Of a stretch of 38,675 nt of DNA, positions 14,155 to 37,657 are shown one piece after another (position 1 is the first letter of the stretch; each line of letters begins with the position of its first letter). A model generated the notes under the pieces. It did no database searches. It had not been told where the DNA came from and worked only from the letters and a program-made list of their open reading frames with translations. The stretch spans positions 1 to 38,675 of IMG/VR virus record IMGVR_UViG_3300025099_000055. One strand, written 5' to 3'. This DNA comes from a virus. Both the position numbers and the translations under genes were made by a program.

Positions 14155-15600
14155 CTATATCCAATCTTTTAATTCTTCACCCATAACTTGACTAGCTATA
14201 TTAATTTTTTTACGTAAAGCTTTTACAATTCTTTCATCAACAGTATCTTCAGCAATAATATCTACATAAGTCATGGGCTTAGTCTGGCCTATTCTATCTA
14301 TTCTAGCTTCTGACTGTTGTCGTTTTTCTAAATCATAACCATTAGAATAATAAATCATAGTTGATGCAGCGGTTAATGTAATACCATAACCACCAGTTTG
14401 TGGTGTGCCAACTAAAAATCTAACAGGACTATCTGGGTCTTGTATTTCTTTAATTGCTTTTTGCCTATCTTCAACAGACGTATCTCCATAGTAAGTCATT
14501 ACAGAGTTATCCACACTTGTATTAAATTCTTTTTTAATATGTTCTACGATTGTTTCTATGTCGTGCCTATAATGTGCCCAAATTACAACTTTACCGTGTA
14601 CTTCATGCAACAGGTCTATCAATTCATCTATACGATTATTTTTTAAAATTTGTGTAGTGCCATCATCAGCAGTAAAATGTCCACAAGTTATTTGATGCAA
14701 ACGCATAAGTTGTGTCATAACTGTTGCAGTTGTAGCAGCTTTACCATTTAAAAATGCTAGAGCTGTTTGTTTCATTTGTGAATAAACTTTCTTTTGTTCA
14801 TCACTTAATTGTACAATACGTTTCATAAATGTTTTCTTAGGTAAATCTAAACAGTCATCTTTTAATACACGGTAAGAAAATGGTTTTAGTTTTTCTGACA
14901 ACTCACCAAGATTACGATAACCAACAACAATTTGTACAGACCTGCCACCAAAATTAGCTGTTCGCATTACTGCATATCTATTTTTAAAAGTGTAAAAAGA
15001 ACTATGATCTAGTAGCCAAGGACTTAAAAAATAACATTGTGTGTATAAATCTAGAGGTGATTTAGTAACTGGTGAACCTGTAAGTATTCTTCTATATTTA
15101 GAATACTTTGATAGACCTAAAATATTTTTTGTACGTTTAGCACCAGGGTTTTTAATAGTAGTAGACTCATCAACTGCAATTAATGCATTATGACAATTTA
15201 AAAATTTGTGAGCAAAATCAACACCTTTTTTAGTAGAAAAAGCCTCTACATTCATAATCAAAATATGTAGTTCTTCACCAGTTTTGAATAAAGTATTTAG
15301 TTTTTTTGCTTGGGTTTTATTAATCATGGCCTGCCATAGCACCATTTTTTTATCTATATGGTCTACAAGGTGTGTGGGTATTTCTGAATTATACCAGTTT
15401 TGATATACTCCTTTAGGTGCTATAATTAAAGCACCATTAATTTTACCTTTGTCATAAAGCATAGATATATTATCTATTAATACTTTAGATTTACCTGTAC
15501 CCATCTCCATAAAATAAGCATATACTTGCTTTTCCCAAGACTTTTCTAACGCAGTTAATTGATGCGCGTATGGCTTGGTCTTAAATTTGTAATTGATCAT
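14155..15600 (-). CDS. SNF2/SF2-type DNA helicase
   Basis: 481 residues with all core SF2 motifs: Walker A MEMGTGKS (31-38), a DEAH-like box DEST (144-147), motif III LTGSP (173-177), and motif VI SEARIDRIGQ (about 430-439), followed by TVDERIVKALRKK. The RIGQ and VDERI forms are those of SNF2-like ATPases found in many phages. It likely remodels or unwinds DNA during replication or recombination. It is the only gene of its strand in the left 29 kb and starts 18 bp from a palindromic divergent promoter that it shares with the replication module. The 5' leader has an AAAGAAG sequence as a weak ribosome site. Confidence 0.9.
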   Translation of the reverse strand: MINYKFKTKPYAHQLTALEKSWEKQVYAYFMEMGTGKSKVLIDNISMLYDKGKINGALIIAPKGVYQNWYNSEIPTHLVDHIDKKMVLWQAMINKTQAKKLNTLFKTGEELHILIMNVEAFSTKKGVDFAHKFLNCHNALIAVDESTTIKNPGAKRTKNILGLSKYSKYRRILTGSPVTKSPLDLYTQCYFLSPWLLDHSSFYTFKNRYAVMRTANFGGRSVQIVVGYRNLGELSEKLKPFSYRVLKDDCLDLPKKTFMKRIVQLSDEQKKVYSQMKQTALAFLNGKAATTATVMTQLMRLHQITCGHFTADDGTTQILKNNRIDELIDLLHEVHGKVVIWAHYRHDIETIVEHIKKEFNTSVDNSVMTYYGDTSVEDRQKAIKEIQDPDSPVRFLVGTPQTGGYGITLTAASTMIYYSNGYDLEKRQQSEARIDRIGQTKPMTYVDIIAEDTVDERIVKALRKKINIASQVMGEELKDWI

Positions 15601-15617: not shown

Positions 15618-15651
15618 TTGACAATATAAAGATAAAATATTATATTGTCAA
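15618..15651. promoter_or_regulatory. Perfect 34-bp palindrome with two superimposed divergent promoters
   Basis: Arms TTGACAATATAA (15618-15629) and TTATATTGTCAA (15640-15651) are exact inverted repeats around 10 bases. On the + strand TTGACA (15618-15623), 17 bases, TATATT (15641-15646) makes a near-consensus sigma70 promoter. By symmetry the minus strand has the identical promoter: TTGACA at 15651-15646 and TATATT at 15628-15623. The two promoters occupy the same DNA, so RNA polymerase can fire only one way at a time. They serve the helicase (minus) and the replication module (plus). Confidence 0.85.
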
Positions 15652-15653
15652 GC

Positions 15654-16040
15654 ATGAAAGAAAATACGTTTAACAGCGAACCAATTGTTTATTTACTACA
15701 AGAAGTGCCAGGTACTAAAATAGGTCGTCCTAAATATAATATTATTGGGGCACAAAAATTTGGTGCAATAAAAGTTCTTCTTAGAGAAGATACACAGATT
15801 GTTAGAAGTCCTGGACCTATAACTTATCAATTAAGAAGATTGTTAAAAGATTTTTCGGATAAAGATTTTTTACTTTTATCTGGTGATCCTAAAGTTATTG
15901 GTTTGGCGATTGCTGTTGCGTGTGATATTAACAATGGAAAGTACACAACGTTAACTTGGGACAGGCAAGAAAAGATGTATTACCCAACCGAGTTTAACAT
16001 ACATGAAAGAGGTGAAATCGATGAGTCAAATAGACTATGA
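15654..16040 (+). CDS. Conserved-looking early protein of unknown function (128 aa)
   Basis: The start is ATG 15654 (MKENTFNSEPIVYLLQEVPG). An in-frame TTG at 15645 lies inside the -10 box of its own promoter and is rejected. The predicted transcript starts at or within a few bases of the ATG, so translation would be leaderless or nearly so. The protein mixes strands and helices, with LLREDTQIVRSPGPITYQLRR and KVIGLAIAVACDINNGKY. I recognise no enzyme motif. As first gene of the replication operon it may be an early host-takeover or replication accessory protein. Confidence 0.75.
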   Translation: MKENTFNSEPIVYLLQEVPGTKIGRPKYNIIGAQKFGAIKVLLREDTQIVRSPGPITYQLRRLLKDFSDKDFLLLSGDPKVIGLAIAVACDINNGKYTTLTWDRQEKMYYPTEFNIHERGEIDESNRL

Positions 16041-16572
16041 ACAAGATAGAGTACAATCTGTAACACAAGCGGATGCTGCAAAGTCATTATCTGATAAGGT
16101 TATAGAACTCAAAAATTTAGAAGACGAAATTTCTAATGCAGAAAAAAGTGTTTCTAAATTAAAAGAACAAGCAAAAACCTTATCGCAGTTTGAGATACCA
16201 GCGATGATGGAAGAAATGCATATTACAAAATTAAAGCTGAAAGATGGTGAGTCCGTAGAAATTAAAAAAATATACGGTGCATCAATACCTCAAGAACATC
16301 AAGAGGCAGCTTTTACATGGCTTCGAAACAACGACCTAGGTGATATTATTAAAAATGATATTACCGTTACCTTTGGTCGAGGCGAAGACAACAAGGCGAG
16401 CGAATACGCAAACCTTGCACAAGGTCAGGGGTATGAGCCCGTCCAGAAAATTGGCGTTCATCCCCAGACACTTAAAGCAGTAGTCAGGGAGCGTCTTGAG
16501 TCTGGACGTGAGATGCCCTCTGATTTATTTAAAACTTACGCAGGTAACAGTACAAAAATAACAAGGAGATAG
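16021..16572 (+). CDS. Coiled-coil replication-module protein (183 aa)
   Basis: ATG 16021 is chosen because GAGGTG lies eight bases upstream; an upstream in-frame start at 16003 lacks this. Residues about 18-60 form a coiled coil (DKVIELKNLEDEISNAEKSV), then a conserved-looking core: FEIPAMMEEM, LKLKDGESVEIKK, AAFTWLRNNDLGDIIKNDI, VTFGRGED. The last third has HPQTLKAVVRERLESG. Similar proteins accompany replication genes in marine phages, but the biochemical role is unknown to me. The segment about 16377-16515 is unusually G+C-rich. It overlaps the previous gene by 20 bp and is 2 bp from the next. Confidence 0.7.
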   Translation: MSQIDYEQDRVQSVTQADAAKSLSDKVIELKNLEDEISNAEKSVSKLKEQAKTLSQFEIPAMMEEMHITKLKLKDGESVEIKKIYGASIPQEHQEAAFTWLRNNDLGDIIKNDITVTFGRGEDNKASEYANLAQGQGYEPVQKIGVHPQTLKAVVRERLESGREMPSDLFKTYAGNSTKITRR

Positions 16573-16574
16573 AA

Positions 16575-17297
16575 ATGAGTGACGAGAAACAAGTAGCGGT
16601 AAAAAAAGAAGCAGGGCTACCTTCAACAATTTTGTTTGAAGATGACGCTGCATCGGGTTTTGAGAATGTAAAGACAACTAGTTTGGCTTTACCTATTTTA
16701 AAACTTTTACAAAATGGTTCAGGTGAAGCACAGAAACGTAATCAAAATTATGTTGATGGCGCAGAACCTGGAATGCTTTTAAATACAGTTACAAAAAAAT
16801 TGTATGATGGAGCAAAAGGGGTATCAGTTATACCTTGCCATTACAAACTAGAGTATCAAGAATGGGCTGACTTTGGAACAGGTTCTGGTAGACCAGAAAA
16901 TATTTTTCCAGATGGCTCTGATATTTTAGATCAAACAACTAAAGATGGTTCAGGTAAAGATAGGTTAGAAAATGGTAATTATATCTTAACTGTTGGACAA
17001 CACTTTGTGTTAATTGTTGGAGATGATGGAGCTGAACAAGCTTTAATCTCAATGAGTTCATCTCAAGGTAAGATAAGCAGAAAATGGAACTCAATGATGA
17101 TGTCCATTTCACTTGATGGAAAAAACGGTTCATACACACCGCCATCATTTAGCCACTCTTATAAACTAACAACTGTGTTAAATTCTGGCAAAGGTAATCA
17201 ATGGTATGGTTACAACGTAATCAAAGAAGGTCCAGTAAAAAACCCTTCAATGTATGAACGTGCTAAGAAATTTTACACTAGTTTAGCCGGCAAATAG
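16575..17297 (+). CDS. Putative ssDNA-binding type protein (unconfirmed)
   Basis: 240 residues preceded by AGGAG seven bases before the ATG, the strongest ribosome site of the module, suggesting high expression. The protein is beta-rich with GVSVIPCHYKLEYQEW, ENGNYILTVGQHFVLIVGDDG, then GKISRKWNSMMMSISLDGK and SHSYKLTTVLNSGKGNQWYGY. Its size, beta content, aromatic/basic residues and location just before primase and helicase fit a single-strand DNA-binding protein, but I see no defining OB-fold signature. That role is inference; it could equally be another replication accessory. Confidence 0.55.
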   Translation: MSDEKQVAVKKEAGLPSTILFEDDAASGFENVKTTSLALPILKLLQNGSGEAQKRNQNYVDGAEPGMLLNTVTKKLYDGAKGVSVIPCHYKLEYQEWADFGTGSGRPENIFPDGSDILDQTTKDGSGKDRLENGNYILTVGQHFVLIVGDDGAEQALISMSSSQGKISRKWNSMMMSISLDGKNGSYTPPSFSHSYKLTTVLNSGKGNQWYGYNVIKEGPVKNPSMYERAKKFYTSLAGK

Positions 17298-17305
17298 TGT
17301 GAATA

Positions 17306-17337
17306 GTAGGCGGTCGATGGAGACGTAGACCGCCTAC
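17306..17337 (+). promoter_or_regulatory. GC-rich 10-bp hairpin between replication genes
   Basis: GTAGGCGGTC (17306-17315) and GACCGCCTAC (17328-17337) form a perfect 10-bp stem, 7 of 10 pairs G-C, with a 12-base loop. It stands out in this AT-rich genome. No U-run follows, so intrinsic termination is unlikely. Between a strongly initiated gene and the primase gene it could protect the upstream mRNA 3' end or mark a processing site. Confidence 0.55.
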
Positions 17338-17352
17338 GCTTACCGAGTGGAC

Positions 17353-18891
17353 ATGATAGAATTAGATAAATTTATAAAAATATTCGAAGGCTTAACTAGT
17401 GCCTATGGTCAAACTGTAAAGACAGATCAGTTTAGTGAAAAAGGTAAACATAAAACTAAATCATTTACAATATCAAATCCTGTAACAAAAAAATTATGGA
17501 GAGAACATTTAGAAGGTAAAGATCCTGCTTTAGGTATAGTTCCAATTACAAAAGAAAATAAATGCAAATGGGGGTGTATTGATATTGATACCTATCCATT
17601 TGACCACAAAAAATTTATACAAAAATTAAAACAAAAAAACATACCTATGATAGTGTGCCGATCAAAGTCAGGGGGTGCGCACGCATTTTTATTTACAAAA
17701 GATTTTGTTCCTGCAACTGTTATGAGAGTAAAATTAAAACTTATTGCATCTGCAGTGGGTTTTTCTGGAGCAGAAATATTTCCTAAACAAGATTATATAA
17801 GAGTTGATAGAGGAGACACTGGTAGTTTTTTAAATCTTCCTTATCATGCGAATGAAAGAACAGTTAGATATGCATACGGACTAGAGGGTAACGTTTTAAA
17901 ACTTGAAGAATTTTTTAACTTGTATGATGAAGTATCATTAACTTTAGAACAATTAAATGAATTAAAAATAGAAAGTGAAAAAGAAAAAACAGATTTATTT
18001 AAAGGTATGCCTCCTTGTTTGGTCACACTATTAAGTGATGGTGTGCCAGATGGCCAAAGAAATAATTGTATGTACAATGTAGGTGTGTATCTTAAGAAGA
18101 GATATCCAGACAAAGAAGAATGGCAAAGTCATATGTTTACATACAACAAACAATTTATGACTCCACCTTTAGATGCAACTGAAATTAATACATTAATAGG
18201 TTCTTTAGATAGTAAAGACTATAATTATAAATGTAAGGATGAACCTATACATAGTTTTTGTGATGCTAAGAAATGTGCATTAAAAGAATTTGGTGTAGGA
18301 GACAATGCACCAGCACCAGAAATAAGTGAGATAAGAAAATATGATTCTGACCCACCAATATACTTTGCATCTATAGATGGTGAAAGTGTTGAGGTTGATG
18401 ATGCAACGTTACACGACCCTGAAAAATTTTCACTGGCTTGTATGAATCAAATAGGTAAACCAATGATGCCTGTACCAAAACATATGTGGCGTAGGTTATT
18501 AATAAAACTATTTGCAAACTTAGAAACAATACCTGCACCAGAATCATCTAAGCTAGACGTGCAGTTAAAAGAAATACTAGCAGATTATATAAATAAAACT
18601 CCAGGTAAAGAATTAAAAGACGTTATGCGTGGGATAGCATTTACAGATACTGATGGCTTTACATATTTTAAATTTAAAGACTTTTGGAAATTTTTATTAA
18701 AGACAAAATCGTGGGCAGAAAAAACTTATCCTAAACAAAAGACAATGAGATTGCTACAATCTTTATTTGAAGCAGAAGAAACACTACCAAAGATAGGTGT
18801 TAAAACAGTTCGTCTTTTAAAAATGCCTACAATTAAATTAGAAAGACCAAACCCTAGGACAACAAAAGTAGAAAAATCACCATGGCTGTAG
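17353..18891 (+). CDS. Archaeo-eukaryotic-type primase (AEP / prim-pol)
   Basis: 512 residues from ATG 17353 (GTG 17347 is the alternative). The N-terminal catalytic domain shows the AEP triad: CIDIDTYP with D77/D79, SKSGGAHAFLF with the sxH-type H110, then FPKQDYIRVDRGDTGSFLNLPY. Around residues 230-305 is a primase C-terminal domain, DGQRNNCMYNVGVYLKKR and LDATEINTLIGSL, ending in a Cys cluster, CX8CX4C (CKDEPIHSFC, DAKKC), probably metal binding. It makes primers, and possibly extends them, for the neighbouring family A polymerase. Its 3' end overlaps the SF1 helicase gene by 10 bp. No DnaG-like primase or DnaB-like helicase is seen. Confidence 0.8.
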   Translation: MIELDKFIKIFEGLTSAYGQTVKTDQFSEKGKHKTKSFTISNPVTKKLWREHLEGKDPALGIVPITKENKCKWGCIDIDTYPFDHKKFIQKLKQKNIPMIVCRSKSGGAHAFLFTKDFVPATVMRVKLKLIASAVGFSGAEIFPKQDYIRVDRGDTGSFLNLPYHANERTVRYAYGLEGNVLKLEEFFNLYDEVSLTLEQLNELKIESEKEKTDLFKGMPPCLVTLLSDGVPDGQRNNCMYNVGVYLKKRYPDKEEWQSHMFTYNKQFMTPPLDATEINTLIGSLDSKDYNYKCKDEPIHSFCDAKKCALKEFGVGDNAPAPEISEIRKYDSDPPIYFASIDGESVEVDDATLHDPEKFSLACMNQIGKPMMPVPKHMWRRLLIKLFANLETIPAPESSKLDVQLKEILADYINKTPGKELKDVMRGIAFTDTDGFTYFKFKDFWKFLLKTKSWAEKTYPKQKTMRLLQSLFEAEETLPKIGVKTVRLLKMPTIKLERPNPRTTKVEKSPWL

Positions 18892-20417
18892 TAAAAATAA
18901 TGGGTCCACCAGGCACAGGTAAAACATATAGACTAGTAAATCATTATTTAAAAAAAGAATTAAACAACTACACTACTGATCCTGAAAAAATAGTATATAT
19001 TACTTTTAGTAGAGCGGCAGCCGAAGAAGCAACTGAAAGAATTTTAGAACTATATCCAGATAAAAAATTAAAATACATTTCTACAATGCATGCTATGGGT
19101 ATGAGAGAATCTAACATAGATGCAAATACTCAATTACTTACTGGTAAAAAATGGAATCGTTTTAAACAAGAATATCCTGAGTGGTTGAATATATCTTTTG
19201 AAACTATTGTAGATGCTGCAGGTAATCCAAGATATCAAAATACACATTTACAAATAATACAATACTCAAGATCTAAATTAATTTCTATAGAAGATGCCGC
19301 TGTTGAATTACAGAAACATCACGACATAGATGTAGATTCTACAATACAACTACAAACAGATTTAAAATCATTCAAGGATGGAACTAATATGGTTGAGTTC
19401 TATGATATGATTAACAAGTTTGTCGAGGAAGATCGGTGTCCTCCACTCGATGCTGTCTTCCTCGATGAAGCCCAAGACTTAAGTCCTCATCAATGGAAAT
19501 GTTTTGATTATATAAAATCAAAATGTAAACGAGCATATATGGCTGGTGATGATGACCAAACTATTTATGGGTTTCAAGGAGCTGATCCAGATTGTTTTAT
19601 GGAACAAGAAGGTGAAAGAGATGATCAAGAAATATCTCGAAGAGTACCAAGAGCTATTCATAAAGAAGCAATAAAAATATTAGATCAACTTACAAGTAGA
19701 ATAGATAAGAAATGGATACCAAGAGATGCAGAAGGAATGGTTTATCCTAATCATACCTTAGATGAGATAGATTTTTCTAAAGGTAATTGGATGATATTAG
19801 CTAGGACAAATAAATTATTGGAGAATATATCAGAACACTTTTATTTTTTAGGTGTTAGATTTACGGGCAAAACAAATAAATATTTACCCAACTCTATATT
19901 AGAAGCTTATCAAGTTTGGACAAGACTAAACCAAGGTGCTTCAGTTTCTCCTGAAGAAGCTGAAAGACTTTACGATTATTTATTAGTAAAAAAAGAACAC
20001 GTACGTAGAGGTTATTCTAATGGTAAAACTATACAACGTGAAACAAGTGTTGATTTAGAAAAATTAAAAAGTGAACATGGTTTACTAATAGATGGTGATT
20101 GGAAACAATTACATTTTCCAGAAGATACGAAAGAATATATGCAAACATTACTAGAGAGAGGAGATACATTGATGGAGAAATCAAAAATACAATTATTAAC
20201 TTTACATGGATCTAAAGGTAAAGAATGCGATAACATATGTTTATTCACAGACTACGGTGTCGAAGGTCAAGATGAATTTATTTATCGTAGTGCTTATGAA
20301 AATCAAGATGCAGAACATAGATTATTTTATGTAGGCACAACAAGAGCAAAAGAAAATTTATACATAATGCAACCAACATCAGATTATTATTACACAATAG
20401 GAGGACCAATAGTATGA
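18882..20417 (+). CDS. SF1A (UvrD/Rep-like) DNA helicase
   Basis: 511 residues. Walker A GPPGTGKT (8-15), motif Ia ITFSRAAAEEATER, Walker B VFLDEAQDLSP (about 194), motif III MAGDDDQTIYGFQGAD, motif V LLTLHGSKGKECDNI and motif VI HRLFYVGTTRAKENLY are all present in order. The family moves 3'-5' on ssDNA. In this phage it follows the primase and probably acts as replicative or recombination helicase, since no other hexameric helicase is visible. The stretch at 19420-19480 encoding motif II is locally G+C-rich. It ends with an ATGA overlap to the next gene. Confidence 0.9.
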   Translation: MAVVKIMGPPGTGKTYRLVNHYLKKELNNYTTDPEKIVYITFSRAAAEEATERILELYPDKKLKYISTMHAMGMRESNIDANTQLLTGKKWNRFKQEYPEWLNISFETIVDAAGNPRYQNTHLQIIQYSRSKLISIEDAAVELQKHHDIDVDSTIQLQTDLKSFKDGTNMVEFYDMINKFVEEDRCPPLDAVFLDEAQDLSPHQWKCFDYIKSKCKRAYMAGDDDQTIYGFQGADPDCFMEQEGERDDQEISRRVPRAIHKEAIKILDQLTSRIDKKWIPRDAEGMVYPNHTLDEIDFSKGNWMILARTNKLLENISEHFYFLGVRFTGKTNKYLPNSILEAYQVWTRLNQGASVSPEEAERLYDYLLVKKEHVRRGYSNGKTIQRETSVDLEKLKSEHGLLIDGDWKQLHFPEDTKEYMQTLLERGDTLMEKSKIQLLTLHGSKGKECDNICLFTDYGVEGQDEFIYRSAYENQDAEHRLFYVGTTRAKENLYIMQPTSDYYYTIGGPIV

Positions 20418-20653
20418 CAAACAAAGACATGTTTAAAGGATTAACGTACGAATCATTAGACAAGCAGGTCGGGGGGAAGCACTATCGAAATATGAAAATT
20501 CAGCCGGCAGAGTTTATAAATGAAAACAAGTTGCTTTTTGCCGAAGGAAACGCTATAAAATATATTTGTAGACATCAAAATAAAGGTAAAGCAGACGATA
20601 TAAAAAAGGCAATACACTATTTAGAGATGATATTAGAAAGAGATTATAGTTAA
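20414..20653 (+). CDS. DUF3310 family protein
   Basis: 79 residues. KQVGGKHYRNMKIQPAEFINENKLLFAEGNAIKYICRHQNKGKADDIKKAIHYLEMIL follows the DUF3310 pattern: HY, QP-x-[DE]-hI, GNhhKYhhR, K-GK-x-x-D-hKKAhxYL. Proteins of this family occur in many phages beside replication genes and have been annotated as nucleotide-kinase-like, although the chemistry is not settled. The last 60 residues cover the whole domain. ATGA overlap with the helicase and TAATG overlap with the polymerase tie it to replication. Confidence 0.85.
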   Translation: MTNKDMFKGLTYESLDKQVGGKHYRNMKIQPAEFINENKLLFAEGNAIKYICRHQNKGKADDIKKAIHYLEMILERDYS

Positions 20654-22536
20654 TGTTTGAAGCACAAACTGAATGGATAAGTCCAGAATCTTTTCCTGAC
20701 CTTAAAGATCATAAATATATAGCAATTGATTTAGAAACAAGAGATCCAGGTTTAAAATCTAAAGGATCCGGTGCACTAGTTAATGAAGGAGAAATTATAG
20801 GAATTGCAGTAGCTGTAGAGGGATGGTCTGGTTATTATTCTTTTGGACATAAAGAAGGAAATTTTTTTGATGAATCTGCGGTTATGAATTGGATAAAAGA
20901 TGTGTGTGCCTTACCTTGTGTTAAATTATTTCACAATGCAATGTATGATGTGTGTTGGTTGAGAGCATATGGAGTTCAAATAAATGGCCATATTGTTGAC
21001 ACAATGGTTATGGCATCATTGGTCGACGAAAATAGATTATGGTATTCACTTAATAGTTTATCGATAGATTATCTTGGACAAATTAAAGATGAAACAGCTT
21101 TAAAAACTGCAGCGGATAAAGCAGGTATTGATGCTAAAGCAGAATTATGGAAACTACCTGCTATGTATGTTGGGTCTTACGCAGAAAAAGATGCAGAGTT
21201 AACATTAAAATTATTTAAAAAATTATCTCTTGAGATTAAATTACAAGATCTTACAAAAGTTTTTGATTTAGAAACTCAACTGTTTCCATGTTTAATTGAC
21301 ATGAAATTTAAGGGCGTTCGAGTAGACGTAGAAAAGGCGCACTTATTAAAGTCCAAATTATCAGAAGAAGAAAAACAGTTGTTGTTAAAAGTAAAAAAAG
21401 AAACAGGAGAAGATGTCCAAATATGGGCAGCAAGATCGATTGCCAAAGTTTTTGACAAACTTTCCCTGCCTTATGACAGAACTGCAAAAACACAAGCACC
21501 TTCCTTTACTAAAAATTTTTTACAAGTGCATAAACACCCGTTGGTACAATGTATAGCAAAAGCTAGAGAAATAAACAAGGCTCATACTACATTTATTGAT
21601 ACGATTATTAAGTACCAATACAAAGGTAGAATACATGCAGACATCAATCCTATTAGAGGTGATAGTGGAGGTACAGTAACTGGTAGATTTTCATATTCAA
21701 ACCCTAATCTTCAACAGATACCAGCTAGAAACAAGCAGCTAGGGCCAATGATACGATCATTATTTATACCAGAAAACAATCACAAGTGGGGTTGTTTTGA
21801 TTATTCACAACAAGAACCACGTTTAGTTGTGCATTATGCAGCTACTAAATTTAAAGGAGATGAAGAAGTTACAGAAATAGTAGAGCGTTTTCAAAACAAC
21901 ACAGTAGACTTCCATCAAACTGTTGCAGATATGGCTAATATATCTAGAACACAAGCCAAAACAATTAACCTTGGATTGTTTTATGGTATGGGTAAAGCAA
22001 AGTTACAAGCAGAATTAGGTTTGTCTACAAAAGACGAAGCAACAAAATTATTTAATAAATATCATGACAGTGTACCATTTGTAAAAGATTTAATGGATGC
22101 AATATCAAGAGATGGTTCTGCGTTTGGTTACATTAAAACATTTGGTGGTAGAAAATGTAGGTTTGATAAATGGGAAATAGCAGAATGGAACAATGGTAAT
22201 TTTAAACCACCCATGAGTAAAGCAGATGCAGAAGCAGCATATTTTGAAAAGTATCCTAAAGCTACAAAGCCAAACATAAGAAGAGCATTTACCTATAAAG
22301 CATTAAATAAATTGATACAAGGATCTGCAGCAGATATGACTAAGCAGTCTATGTTAGATTTATATAGAGAAGGTATTGTGCCACACATACAAATTCACGA
22401 TGAACTTGATATTTCTGTAGAGTCAGAGTCGCAGGCTAAAAAAATTATTGAGATTATGGAGAATGCTGTTAAATTAAAAATCCCTAACAAAGTTGACTAT
22501 GAATCAGGAGACAACTGGGGAGAAATAAATGGATAA
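20653..22536 (+). CDS. polA: Family A DNA polymerase (DNA polymerase I-like)
   Basis: 627 residues with an N-terminal 3'-5' exonuclease: IAIDLETR (D26, E28), HNAMYDVCWL (D99) and YAEKDAEL (Y177, D181 region). The polymerase domain has TVTGRFSYSNPNLQQIP (341-357), motif A CFDYSQQEPR (D383), motif B RTQAKTINLGLFYGMG (431-446) and motif C IHDELDIS (H582-D583-E584). Leu440 occupies the position of E. coli Phe762, which affects fidelity and sugar selection. No 5'-nuclease domain is attached. It is the phage replicase, working with the primase and helicase just upstream. Motif A has QQEPR instead of the common QIELR. Confidence 0.95.
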   Translation: MFEAQTEWISPESFPDLKDHKYIAIDLETRDPGLKSKGSGALVNEGEIIGIAVAVEGWSGYYSFGHKEGNFFDESAVMNWIKDVCALPCVKLFHNAMYDVCWLRAYGVQINGHIVDTMVMASLVDENRLWYSLNSLSIDYLGQIKDETALKTAADKAGIDAKAELWKLPAMYVGSYAEKDAELTLKLFKKLSLEIKLQDLTKVFDLETQLFPCLIDMKFKGVRVDVEKAHLLKSKLSEEEKQLLLKVKKETGEDVQIWAARSIAKVFDKLSLPYDRTAKTQAPSFTKNFLQVHKHPLVQCIAKAREINKAHTTFIDTIIKYQYKGRIHADINPIRGDSGGTVTGRFSYSNPNLQQIPARNKQLGPMIRSLFIPENNHKWGCFDYSQQEPRLVVHYAATKFKGDEEVTEIVERFQNNTVDFHQTVADMANISRTQAKTINLGLFYGMGKAKLQAELGLSTKDEATKLFNKYHDSVPFVKDLMDAISRDGSAFGYIKTFGGRKCRFDKWEIAEWNNGNFKPPMSKADAEAAYFEKYPKATKPNIRRAFTYKALNKLIQGSAADMTKQSMLDLYREGIVPHIQIHDELDISVESESQAKKIIEIMENAVKLKIPNKVDYESGDNWGEING

Positions 22537-27839: not shown

Positions 27840-27930
27840 TTACAAAAAACAAAAGCCTAGAAAAAGACCTGGTAGGCATAAAAAAAGCCCTAATAAACAT
27901 GAGAAAAGAATGGGTAAATATAGGCGTTGA
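27805..27930 (+). CDS. Small Lys/Arg-rich protein (41 aa)
   Basis: Begins MGKKKPLFGVSNYKKQKPRK and continues RPGRHKKSPNKHEKRMGKYRR. It overlaps the zinc-ribbon gene by 35 bp in another frame. More than half of the residues are basic, with a KRPGRHKK motif like small basic proteins seen in other marine phages (from memory). It probably binds DNA or RNA. Its TGA stop lies inside the -35 box of the promoter that follows, so it marks the end of one transcription unit. Confidence 0.55.
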   Translation: MGKKKPLFGVSNYKKQKPRKRPGRHKKSPNKHEKRMGKYRR

Positions 27931-27956
27931 CAAACGTGATATAATATCCTATATTG
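27927..27956 (+). promoter_or_regulatory. Sigma70-type promoter with operator-like TAATATCCTATATTG
   Basis: TTGACA (27927-27932), a 17-base spacer and TATATT (27950-27955) form a near-consensus promoter for the small-gene run starting at 28019. The sequence ATAATATCCTATATTG (27941-27956) covers the spacer end and -10 box; close copies occur at other promoters of this window. The predicted start near 27962 would place GGTTC-8-GAACC (27961-27978), a 5-bp hairpin, at the very 5' end of the mRNA. Confidence 0.75.
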
Positions 27957-28018: not shown

Positions 28019-28339
28019 ATGAAAAAACTAACAAAAAAACAAACTAAAAAAATCAAGGATCAAATAATAATTGATTTTATTGATAGACACATGAGTAAGT
28101 TTGATAAACTAATGAATAATGCAACTAAAGAACTTGAAACAATAAGAAGAACCACTAGCATTGGATGTAGTGTTCATGCACTATCTTCGCAGATAGTAAA
28201 ACATATTGCAACTAATATGGCTGACTACTATGGCACTACTGAAAAGGTAAAAGATACTTTTCAAACTGCTTTAGAAGAAGAAGCAAACCATAGATATATT
28301 CATGCTAAAATGGATAAAGAGGAAGCGCAGTTAAACTAA
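28019..28339 (+). CDS. Unknown helical protein (106 aa)
   Basis: First gene behind the 27.95-kb promoter, with GAAGGAA before its ATG. A Lys-rich start (MKKLTKKQTKKIKDQIIIDF) leads into helices: HMSKFDKLMNNATKELETIRRT, then CSVHALSSQIVKHIATNMADYYG and ALEEEANHRYIHAKMDKEEA. No domain is recognised. Position in a run of short genes under a phage-regulated promoter suggests an early accessory or host-interaction function. It joins the next gene by TAATG. Confidence 0.65.
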   Translation: MKKLTKKQTKKIKDQIIIDFIDRHMSKFDKLMNNATKELETIRRTTSIGCSVHALSSQIVKHIATNMADYYGTTEKVKDTFQTALEEEANHRYIHAKMDKEEAQLN

Positions 28340-35377: not shown

Positions 35378-35590
35378 GTCTTTTGGCTTTATAAAATCAA
35401 ACTCTATATTAATTTTGTTATCTTTAATATTCATAGAGGGTTTTGTAATTGTATATTCGCAAGGACAGTTATCTAACCATTCATCAAAATATTTTATAGC
35501 GTTATCTCTTATTTCTTTTTGCTTGCGCTCATGCTCTATAGCCTTATTCTTACTATCTCTATAATTGTGTCCTTCATCTCGTTGTGTCAT
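35369..35590 (-). CDS. Small acidic/basic mixed protein (73 aa), end of minus-strand cassette
   Basis: Product MTQRDEGHNYRDSKNKAIEH, then ERKQKEIRDNAIKYFDEWLD, NCPCEYTITKPSMNIKDNKI and an EFDFIKP end. The first half is a charged helix; the second half beta-rich with CPC. Its start carries the first copy of the repeated GAGCAGAAGGGATAA-type leader, in slightly diverged form (AAGCAGAAGGGATAAGCTATG). Last gene of the leftward cassette. Function unknown. Confidence 0.6.
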   Translation of the reverse strand: MTQRDEGHNYRDSKNKAIEHERKQKEIRDNAIKYFDEWLDNCPCEYTITKPSMNIKDNKINIEFDFIKPKDLA

Positions 35591-35593
35591 AGC

Positions 35594-35896
35594 TTATCCC
35601 TTCTGCTTGCTCGATTGTTGTTTTAACTTATTAATTAAATTCTCTACTTCATCACATACATACCAAAAAACCCAAGACATTTTGCCGTCATTCCAATCTC
35701 TGTCATTACCATAACCATAAACACCATAAAATTGATCTTTAGCTGTTAAATAAATATCCTCTTCAACTTGTAGCCACTTAATACCAATTTTACCTTCTTT
35801 ATTTGGTTTGGGAAGTTTAGGTAATTTTTTTAAATTTCTAATATATTTTAATATCCACGCTTTTAGCTTGCGCTCTCTTTTTTCTTTAGGTTTCAT
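35594..35896 (-). CDS. Small Trp-rich basic/acidic protein (100 aa)
   Basis: ATG 35896 is the start: AGAAGGGATAAT lies directly upstream as part of the repeated leader; the 14 additional codons upstream belong to the leader. The product MKPKEKRERKLKAWILKYIR has a basic helix, then GIKWLQVEEDIYLTAKDQFY, DRDWNDGKMSWVFWYVCDEV and ends NKLKQQSSKQKG. Many Trp and Tyr. The C-terminal QSSKQKG is coded by the leader repeat of the next gene, so the 3' end is recombined with, or grown into, that element. Confidence 0.6.
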   Translation of the reverse strand: MKPKEKRERKLKAWILKYIRNLKKLPKLPKPNKEGKIGIKWLQVEEDIYLTAKDQFYGVYGYGNDRDWNDGKMSWVFWYVCDEVENLINKLKQQSSKQKG

Positions 35897-35897
35897 A

Positions 35898-36080
35898 TTA
35901 TCCCTTCTGCTCGCTCGCTTGTTGATTAATACAATCATTACAAATTAAATCAAAATCAATCTCATTAATATCTTTCATTGTTCCATATAATTGCACTCCC
36001 CCACATTTTGAACAAATATCAAATGGTTGATTAGGATTATTTTTCATAATTTGCTTTTGTTGTTGTTCAGTCAATTTCAT
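35898..36080 (-). CDS. Small zinc-binding protein (60 aa)
   Basis: Product MKLTEQQQKQIMKNNPNQPF continues with DICSKCGGVQLYGTMKDINE and FDLICNDCINQQASEQKG. CSKCGG and CNDC make a four-Cys zinc ribbon. The start follows the repeated leader AGCAGAAGGGATAATATG. The last seven residues, QASEQKG, are coded by the leader of the next gene. A 1-bp gap separates TAA from the next ATG. Confidence 0.65.
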   Translation of the reverse strand: MKLTEQQQKQIMKNNPNQPFDICSKCGGVQLYGTMKDINEIDFDLICNDCINQQASEQKG

Positions 36081-36081
36081 A

Positions 36082-36255
36082 TTATCCCTTCTGCTCGTTC
36101 GCTTGTTGATTTATAATATTTTTACATTCTTTTAATCTTCTTAAATCTGCGTCATAATATTCTCTATTTGATTTATTTTTTGACAAAATTTCTTCTTGAA
36201 TATCTAAACAATGTTGTATTATATTTATTTGATCTTCATTAAATTTATAATTCAT
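36082..36255 (-). CDS. Small helical protein (57 aa)
   Basis: Product MNYKFNEDQINIIQHCLDIQ, then EEILSKNKSNREYYDADLRR and LKECKNIINQQANEQKG. Mostly one or two helices. It starts directly after a leader copy with AGAAGAGATAATATG and ends in QANEQKG, coded by the next leader copy (36078-36111). It belongs to the same array as its two downstream neighbours. Function unknown. Confidence 0.6.
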   Translation of the reverse strand: MNYKFNEDQINIIQHCLDIQEEILSKNKSNREYYDADLRRLKECKNIINQQANEQKG

Positions 36256-36347
36256 ATTATCTCTTCTGCTCGCTCGCTTGTCGCTTGAGCTTGTCGTTTG
36301 TTAGTTTTAAATGGACTAGTTATTTTTTCTCGAGTATTTAATGACAT
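36252..36347 (-). CDS. Possible 31-residue leader ORF
   Basis: ATG 36347 opens MSLNTREKITSPFKTNKRQA, then QATSERAEEII, and its TGA overlaps the ATG of the next gene (ATGA). It reads the leader repeat in a different frame from the QASEQKG tails. There is no clear ribosome site. Coupling is the main support; it may be only chance. Confidence 0.3.
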   Translation of the reverse strand: MSLNTREKITSPFKTNKRQAQATSERAEEII

Positions 36348-37620: not shown

Positions 37621-37657
37621 AATATGGGATATTAAATTATAATATCCCATATTGCAA
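37621..37657 (-). promoter_or_regulatory. 33-bp perfect palindrome with weak promoter, operator family
   Basis: AATATGGGATATTA (37621-37634) and TAATATCCCATATT (37640-37653) are exact inverted repeats of 14 bp around 5 bases. Each arm is a version of the TAATATCCYATATT site. On the minus strand TTGCAA (37657-37652), 17 bases, TAATAT (37634-37629) may be the promoter, so a bound protein would cover both boxes. Confidence 0.65.

Follow-up and report, generated by a model that had tools for sequence, protein, structure and literature searches.

The 38,675-bp window analysed here is the whole of an IMG/VR virus record (IMGVR_UViG_3300025099_000055), an incomplete contig whose relatives measure 57-61 kb, and by nucleotide and protein matches this phage groups with the SAR11 (Pelagibacter) phages HTVC027P, HTVC023P and 023Pt_psg01. 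Within the window, a gap of 53 bp separates the ATG of a leftward helicase gene (15600) from the ATG of a rightward gp32-like gene (15654). The genes and the features of the gap are as follows.

14155-15600, minus strand: SNF2-family helicase gene (SNF2-rel_dom and Helicase_C), 481 aa, from domain and protein matches
15616, minus strand: predicted leftward start (to about 2 nt), 7 nt past its -10 box
15618-15623, plus strand: rightward -35 box TTGACA, promoter match of 11/12 together with its -10 box
15623-15628, minus strand: leftward -10 box TATATT, 17-nt spacing from its own -35 box
15630-15639, no strand: asymmetric 10-nt centre, which varies freely and whose symmetry is at chance in relatives
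15641-15646, plus strand: rightward -10 box TATATT, 17-nt spacing from its own -35 box
15646-15651, minus strand: leftward (helicase) -35 box TTGACA, promoter match of 11/12 together with its -10 box
15653, plus strand: predicted rightward start (to about 2 nt), 7 nt past its -10 box
15654-16040, plus strand: Pam3_gp32-like gene, first in the rightward operon, 128 aa, from protein matches
16003-22536, plus strand: remainder of the rightward replication operon (Pam3 gp33-like, gp34-like, AEP primase, UvrD-like helicase, DUF3310, DNA polymerase A)

The sequence-only reading had described the element at 15618-15651 as an exact 34-bp palindrome placing TTGACA-17-TATATT on both strands. The promoter part of this description is borne out: when sigma70-type hexamers near TTGACA/TATAAT are sought at a spacing of 16-18 nt, each strand yields one pair (11/12, 17-nt spacing), at 15618-15646 (+) and 15651-15623 (-). 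The -35 box of each promoter does overlap the -10 box of the other, by one base, and 24 bp are common to both -35 to -10 spans. The palindrome itself was overstated, the element consisting of two perfect 12-bp arms, TTGACAATATAA and TTATATTGTCAA, around the asymmetric 10-nt centre AGATAAAATA. With a scoring matrix that is E. coli's and not SAR11's, the two interlocked promoters reach the top score between 10 and 22 kb, no other site there being as high. A third TTGACA-17-TATATT promoter, solitary and located at 27927-27955 in front of the gene at 28019, has the same score as the pair, and these three sites share the highest score of the window.

That the inverted repeat would be rare in itself was considered and rejected: repeats with 12-bp arms and a gap of up to 30 nt are expected 0.31 times in each dinucleotide-shuffled window, 19.5% of the shuffled windows containing one, and the repeat alone is therefore no evidence. 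The window indeed holds another inverted repeat of at least this arm length, at 37621-37653, which is perfect over 14 bp (AATATGGGATATTA/TAATATCCCATATT, 5-nt loop) and lies between minus-strand genes. As for the promoters, two on opposite strands scoring at least 11/12 within the 53-bp gap were obtained in none of 3000 gap shuffles, and two scoring at least 10/12 in 0.17% of them.

Relatives were collected by searches with the helicase and the gp32-like protein; many of the loci share the divergent gene pair, and 96 helicase upstream regions were left once near copies had been removed. Forty-five non-redundant relatives hold TTGAC...GTCAA (class R1, in which the left TTGAC is universal by definition), with total lengths of 33, 34, 36, 37 or 38 bp. 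In this class, the best promoter beats composition shuffles (p<0.05) in 32/45 cases on the plus strand, 31/45 on the minus strand and 22/45 on both. When the core is shuffled with the -35 boxes held fixed, the quality of the -10 boxes at 16-18 nt (1.36 and 1.26 bits, versus about -0.7, sd 0.5) lies about 4 sd above the null on both strands and exceeds the maximum of 1000 core shuffles. The proposal of overlapping divergent sigma70-type promoters facing the helicase and the replication genes is thus supported, the pair being conserved in many relatives. The predicted starts are 35-39 bp apart in 40/45 R1 relatives, and the total length varies from 33 to 38 bp.

The two -10 boxes behave differently among these 45 relatives. 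On the plus strand, the TA.A positions are prominent when sequences are aligned on their own -35 box (0.67, 0.67 and 0.56 bits) and less so when aligned on the opposite one, so that the rightward -10 box tracks its own -35 box as the length changes. For the leftward -10 box, which in the 33-34-bp class usually reads TAnnTT, alignment on either -35 box, its own or the opposite one, fixes the position equally well, and the spacing to its own -35 box drifts more than on the plus strand. Some rightward -10 boxes of the 33-bp class (TAAAAG, TAGAAG) lack the final T and look weak. In three relatives (L016, L032 and L057), the helicase leader is longer by 70-130 nt and the 33-34-bp unit is intact beside the gp32-like gene; the additional leader of these three shows apparent inverted repeats.

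A second layout is found at this locus in the HTVC027P-type clade, which retains the right GTCAA (the helicase -35 box) and lacks the left TTGACA. A TATATA or TATAAT is so placed that it could serve both strands; the starts predicted there are mostly 16-27 bp apart, and the scores are weak. Rows of this type nest within the R1-bearing part of the helicase tree, which indicates that the layout changed during evolution. The left arm is lost in more distant relatives, and the perfectly symmetric state requires six changes on the helicase tree, bearing in mind that recombination may affect the gap separately from the helicase. The HTVC027P-type clade thus has the helicase without the symmetry, which is an observation that the sequence-only reading had named as refuting its claim, and symmetry is, on these alignments, a lineage trait and not a requirement.

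Databases were also scanned with a strict pattern, TTGACAWTATA-N12-TATAWTGTCAA. It occurs in at least 119 IMG/VR stretches, counts in this redundant collection being contigs and not independent origins; among the matches listed, 110 lie beside this helicase and/or a gp32-like gene and 9 elsewhere. The 84,980 genomes of prokaryote species that were scanned (257 billion bases) contain 29 matching stretches, none of them at this locus, and 17 of the 29 sit between divergent open frames. Five of the bacterial loci (L438, L449, L456, L459 and L460) combine interlocked promoters with an inner GAAC....GTTC-like palindrome, presumably reminiscent of the Gram-positive LexA box, and are apparently an example of the interlocked layout with an operator at its centre. 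A search of the literature found no paper describing the promoters of these phages.

From these data, we consider it likely that the element is a compact two-way promoter, made of two interlocked sigma70 promoters for the host RNA polymerase; the actual starts, the promoter strength, the use of host polymerase and the competition in this phage are what we infer from the DNA. Among the relatives, the cultured phage HTVC027P encodes no RNA polymerase and depends on that of its host (PMC12753301). The two near-consensus promoters point outward, each -35 box abutting the -10 box of the other, and one polymerase footprint would cover both, in such a way that one DNA copy would hold one polymerase at a time. 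Leftward binding would produce a helicase mRNA whose short leader, some 16 nt long, carries a Shine-Dalgarno-like stretch, AGAAAGAAG, and rightward binding a replication operon mRNA beginning almost at its ATG. Given the start predicted at 15653, this second mRNA is probably leaderless, with 0-2 nt before the ATG at 15654; other relatives have GAAAGTTATG or a similar sequence, i.e., predicted short rightward leaders with a Shine-Dalgarno-like stretch. No regulator would be required under this mechanism: how output is divided between helicase and operon would depend on the quality of the -35 and -10 boxes on each side, and interference between the directions would arise only with frequent firing.

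Whether this amounts to mutually exclusive transcription, as had been proposed, depends on the time scale. Two polymerases should be unable to sit on one DNA copy at once, as predicted from the 24-bp overlap of the spans and the known footprint of the polymerase, and at E. coli bidirectional promoters opposing polymerases indeed cannot bind together (PMC12825309). Exclusion over time does not follow, since at these same promoters there is little competition at basal activity, and it appears only once transcription in one direction is strong (PMC12825309). For a switch, a regulator or a time-dependent change would be necessary, and neither is evident here; the element is probably a two-way promoter, not a proven genetic switch. 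As regards timing, the RNA-seq paper on HTVC027P, which assigns expression classes at the level of genes, reports all early genes as being of unknown function, and the helicase of that phage is hence probably not early.

The strongest argument for some extra constraint remains the uniformity of the TATATT boxes. In all 84 distinct strict-pattern elements at this locus, among the matches listed, TATATT is found on both strands even though the pattern also allowed TATAAT, and this uniformity (84/84) exceeds what simple promoter selection requires; the arms of these elements are otherwise fixed by the search pattern, with two positions free (A/T), and their constancy is no evidence. In relatives of the 33-34-bp class found by homology, the base following the left -35 box is A in 20/21, its right counterpart is T in 12/21, and perfect 11-bp arms are seen in 8/21. 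This pattern could be accounted for in part by a preference for TTGACAA on the left; the -35 box of the solitary promoter at 27927 also continues with A. It is possible, though unlikely, that the element is a dedicated competition device, in which strong and equal host promoters, perhaps together with a symmetric binding factor, would be kept symmetric in many SAR11 phage lineages and would split polymerase between the helicase and the replication operon at a fixed or time-shifted ratio.

We also judge it unlikely that the TTGAC(AATATA) arms are the half-sites of an operator, at which a dimeric regulator of host or phage origin would repress or choose between the promoters, an option raised by the sequence-only reading. 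The arms are perfectly symmetric in the window, the 84 distinct strict-pattern elements (among the matches listed) have TTGACAATATA/TATATTGTCAA arms around unrelated centres, with no TATAAT, and some bacterial matches of the same layout (L438, L459) have an operator-like palindromic centre. Against this, the distance between half-sites is not fixed, being 28, 29, 31, 32 or 33 bp from centre to centre in the 45 relatives, which changes the helical phase, and the left arm is missing from the HTVC027P clade. The centre symmetry of the same 84 elements is at chance (1.68 of 6 pairs, versus 1.57 after shuffling), leaving a palindromic dyad unsupported. Compensatory changes, which the sequence-only reading had named as support for its claim, do not go beyond chance either: when right halves were exchanged between relatives and the inner-arm symmetry was recomputed, it was 3.14, versus 3.08 in the permutations (p = 0.41). 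Conserved symmetry thus stands for TTGAC...GTCAA, kept in 45 non-redundant relatives, and fails for the free centre and for the inner arms, which show no covariation; as far as tested, the symmetry itself does not appear to be under selection. Multiple operator copies were considered and dismissed, as the window has three elements of this type, two of which are weak matches with 5-bp arms. Control by the alphaproteobacterial regulator CtrA was likewise set aside, as the arms do not appear to resemble the CtrA motif.

The neighbouring genes provide no obvious regulator for such an operator. PHROGs and Pfam searches revealed no transcription regulator among the window proteins searched, with the reservation that the contig is incomplete and that a host protein would escape such searches. 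The structure model of the gp32-like protein is confident (pLDDT 89); Foldseek returned nothing below an E-value of 0.001 with it (best E 0.003), and the top rows of VIA-align are nearly all CARF/SAVED domains, with Z up to 7.8, which is possibly chance level. These CARF/SAVED neighbours are cyclic-nucleotide-sensing domains and ring nucleases, and the gp32-like protein could, if the resemblance is not due to chance, be a phage counter-defence protein. Modelled as CARF/SAVED-like and without an apparent separate DNA-binding domain, it speaks against the operator, and the model lends no support to a helix-turn-helix by which it would regulate its own expression. Interlocked sigma70 promoters used by the host polymerase would accordingly suit the locus better than a dimer-bound operator.

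Another, quite improbable, explanation is that a single promoter is of importance, most likely the leftward one of the helicase, and that the other match has arisen incidentally because the gap is short, AT-rich and crowded. The helicase -35 box is in fact the most conserved part of the element, with GTCAA kept in 66/72 non-redundant gaps outside the HTVC023P-helicase clade, versus 45/72 for the left TTGAC, and the rightward -10 box is poor in several relatives. The rightward promoter is nonetheless significant in the 32 of 45 relatives mentioned above, its -10 box follows its own -35 box, and the gap offers no other promoter for the operon downstream, which needs one. Highly implausible, finally, is a hairpin or cruciform, for instance at a replication origin, to which the promoter matches would be secondary: the gap folds as single-stranded DNA at -8.4 kcal/mol (z = -4.4 versus shuffles), but the stem symmetry is not kept across relatives, whereas the -35/-10 spacing is, and the hairpin would be absent from both predicted RNAs.

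Rfam gave no match at the locus, elsewhere in the window, or in the inserted helicase leaders. Two other repeats of the window can be mentioned: a perfect 10-bp GC-rich inverted repeat at 17306-17337 (GTAGGCGGTC/GACCGCCTAC, 12-nt loop), just upstream of the primase gene, without a T run or an Rfam match, and a leader-like repeat, TATTATCCCTTCTGCTCGCTCGCTTGTTGATT, present at 35587-36301 in four copies that are 67-100% identical and precede successive small minus-strand genes.

The two-way promoter favoured here can be compared with several known systems. In phage lambda, the divergent promoters PR and PRM are close together, PRM giving a leaderless cI mRNA, and CI/Cro operators lie between the promoters, with the regulators encoded alongside; in the element described here, in contrast, the centre is not palindromic and no regulator was found beside it. 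The conjugative plasmid pLS20 is likewise a mobile element in which one of the layers of control consists of divergent promoters that overlap, but these are of unequal strength and involve a dedicated regulator, RcoLS20, and DNA looping (PMC4207663), whereas the promoter scores are equal here and no regulator was found among the window proteins searched. The bidirectional promoters of Warman and Grainger are similar in that pseudo-symmetric DNA drives divergent transcription, often between divergent genes, and in that polymerase binds in either orientation and never in both, which is predicted for the present element (PMC12825309; PMC10268837). This class is however defined by starts 7-25 bp apart (most commonly 18) and a shared -10 box (PMC12825309; PMC10268837), and the element would fall outside it, with predicted starts 37 bp apart, separate -10 boxes and two consensus -35 boxes. 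The HTVC027P-type relatives, whose predicted starts are mostly 16-27 bp apart around a shared TATATA, are closer to that kind. The present sequences are best read as overlapping divergent promoters in an extreme form that has been conserved.

Bidirectional promoters have been recognised as a class only recently, and their rules come from E. coli, where basal activity is too low for competition (PMC12825309). Near-consensus interlocked promoters that are kept across a widespread group of ocean phages would provide a natural test of polymerase competition at high promoter strength, and the relatives in which this locus has moved to a shared -10 box would add to it.
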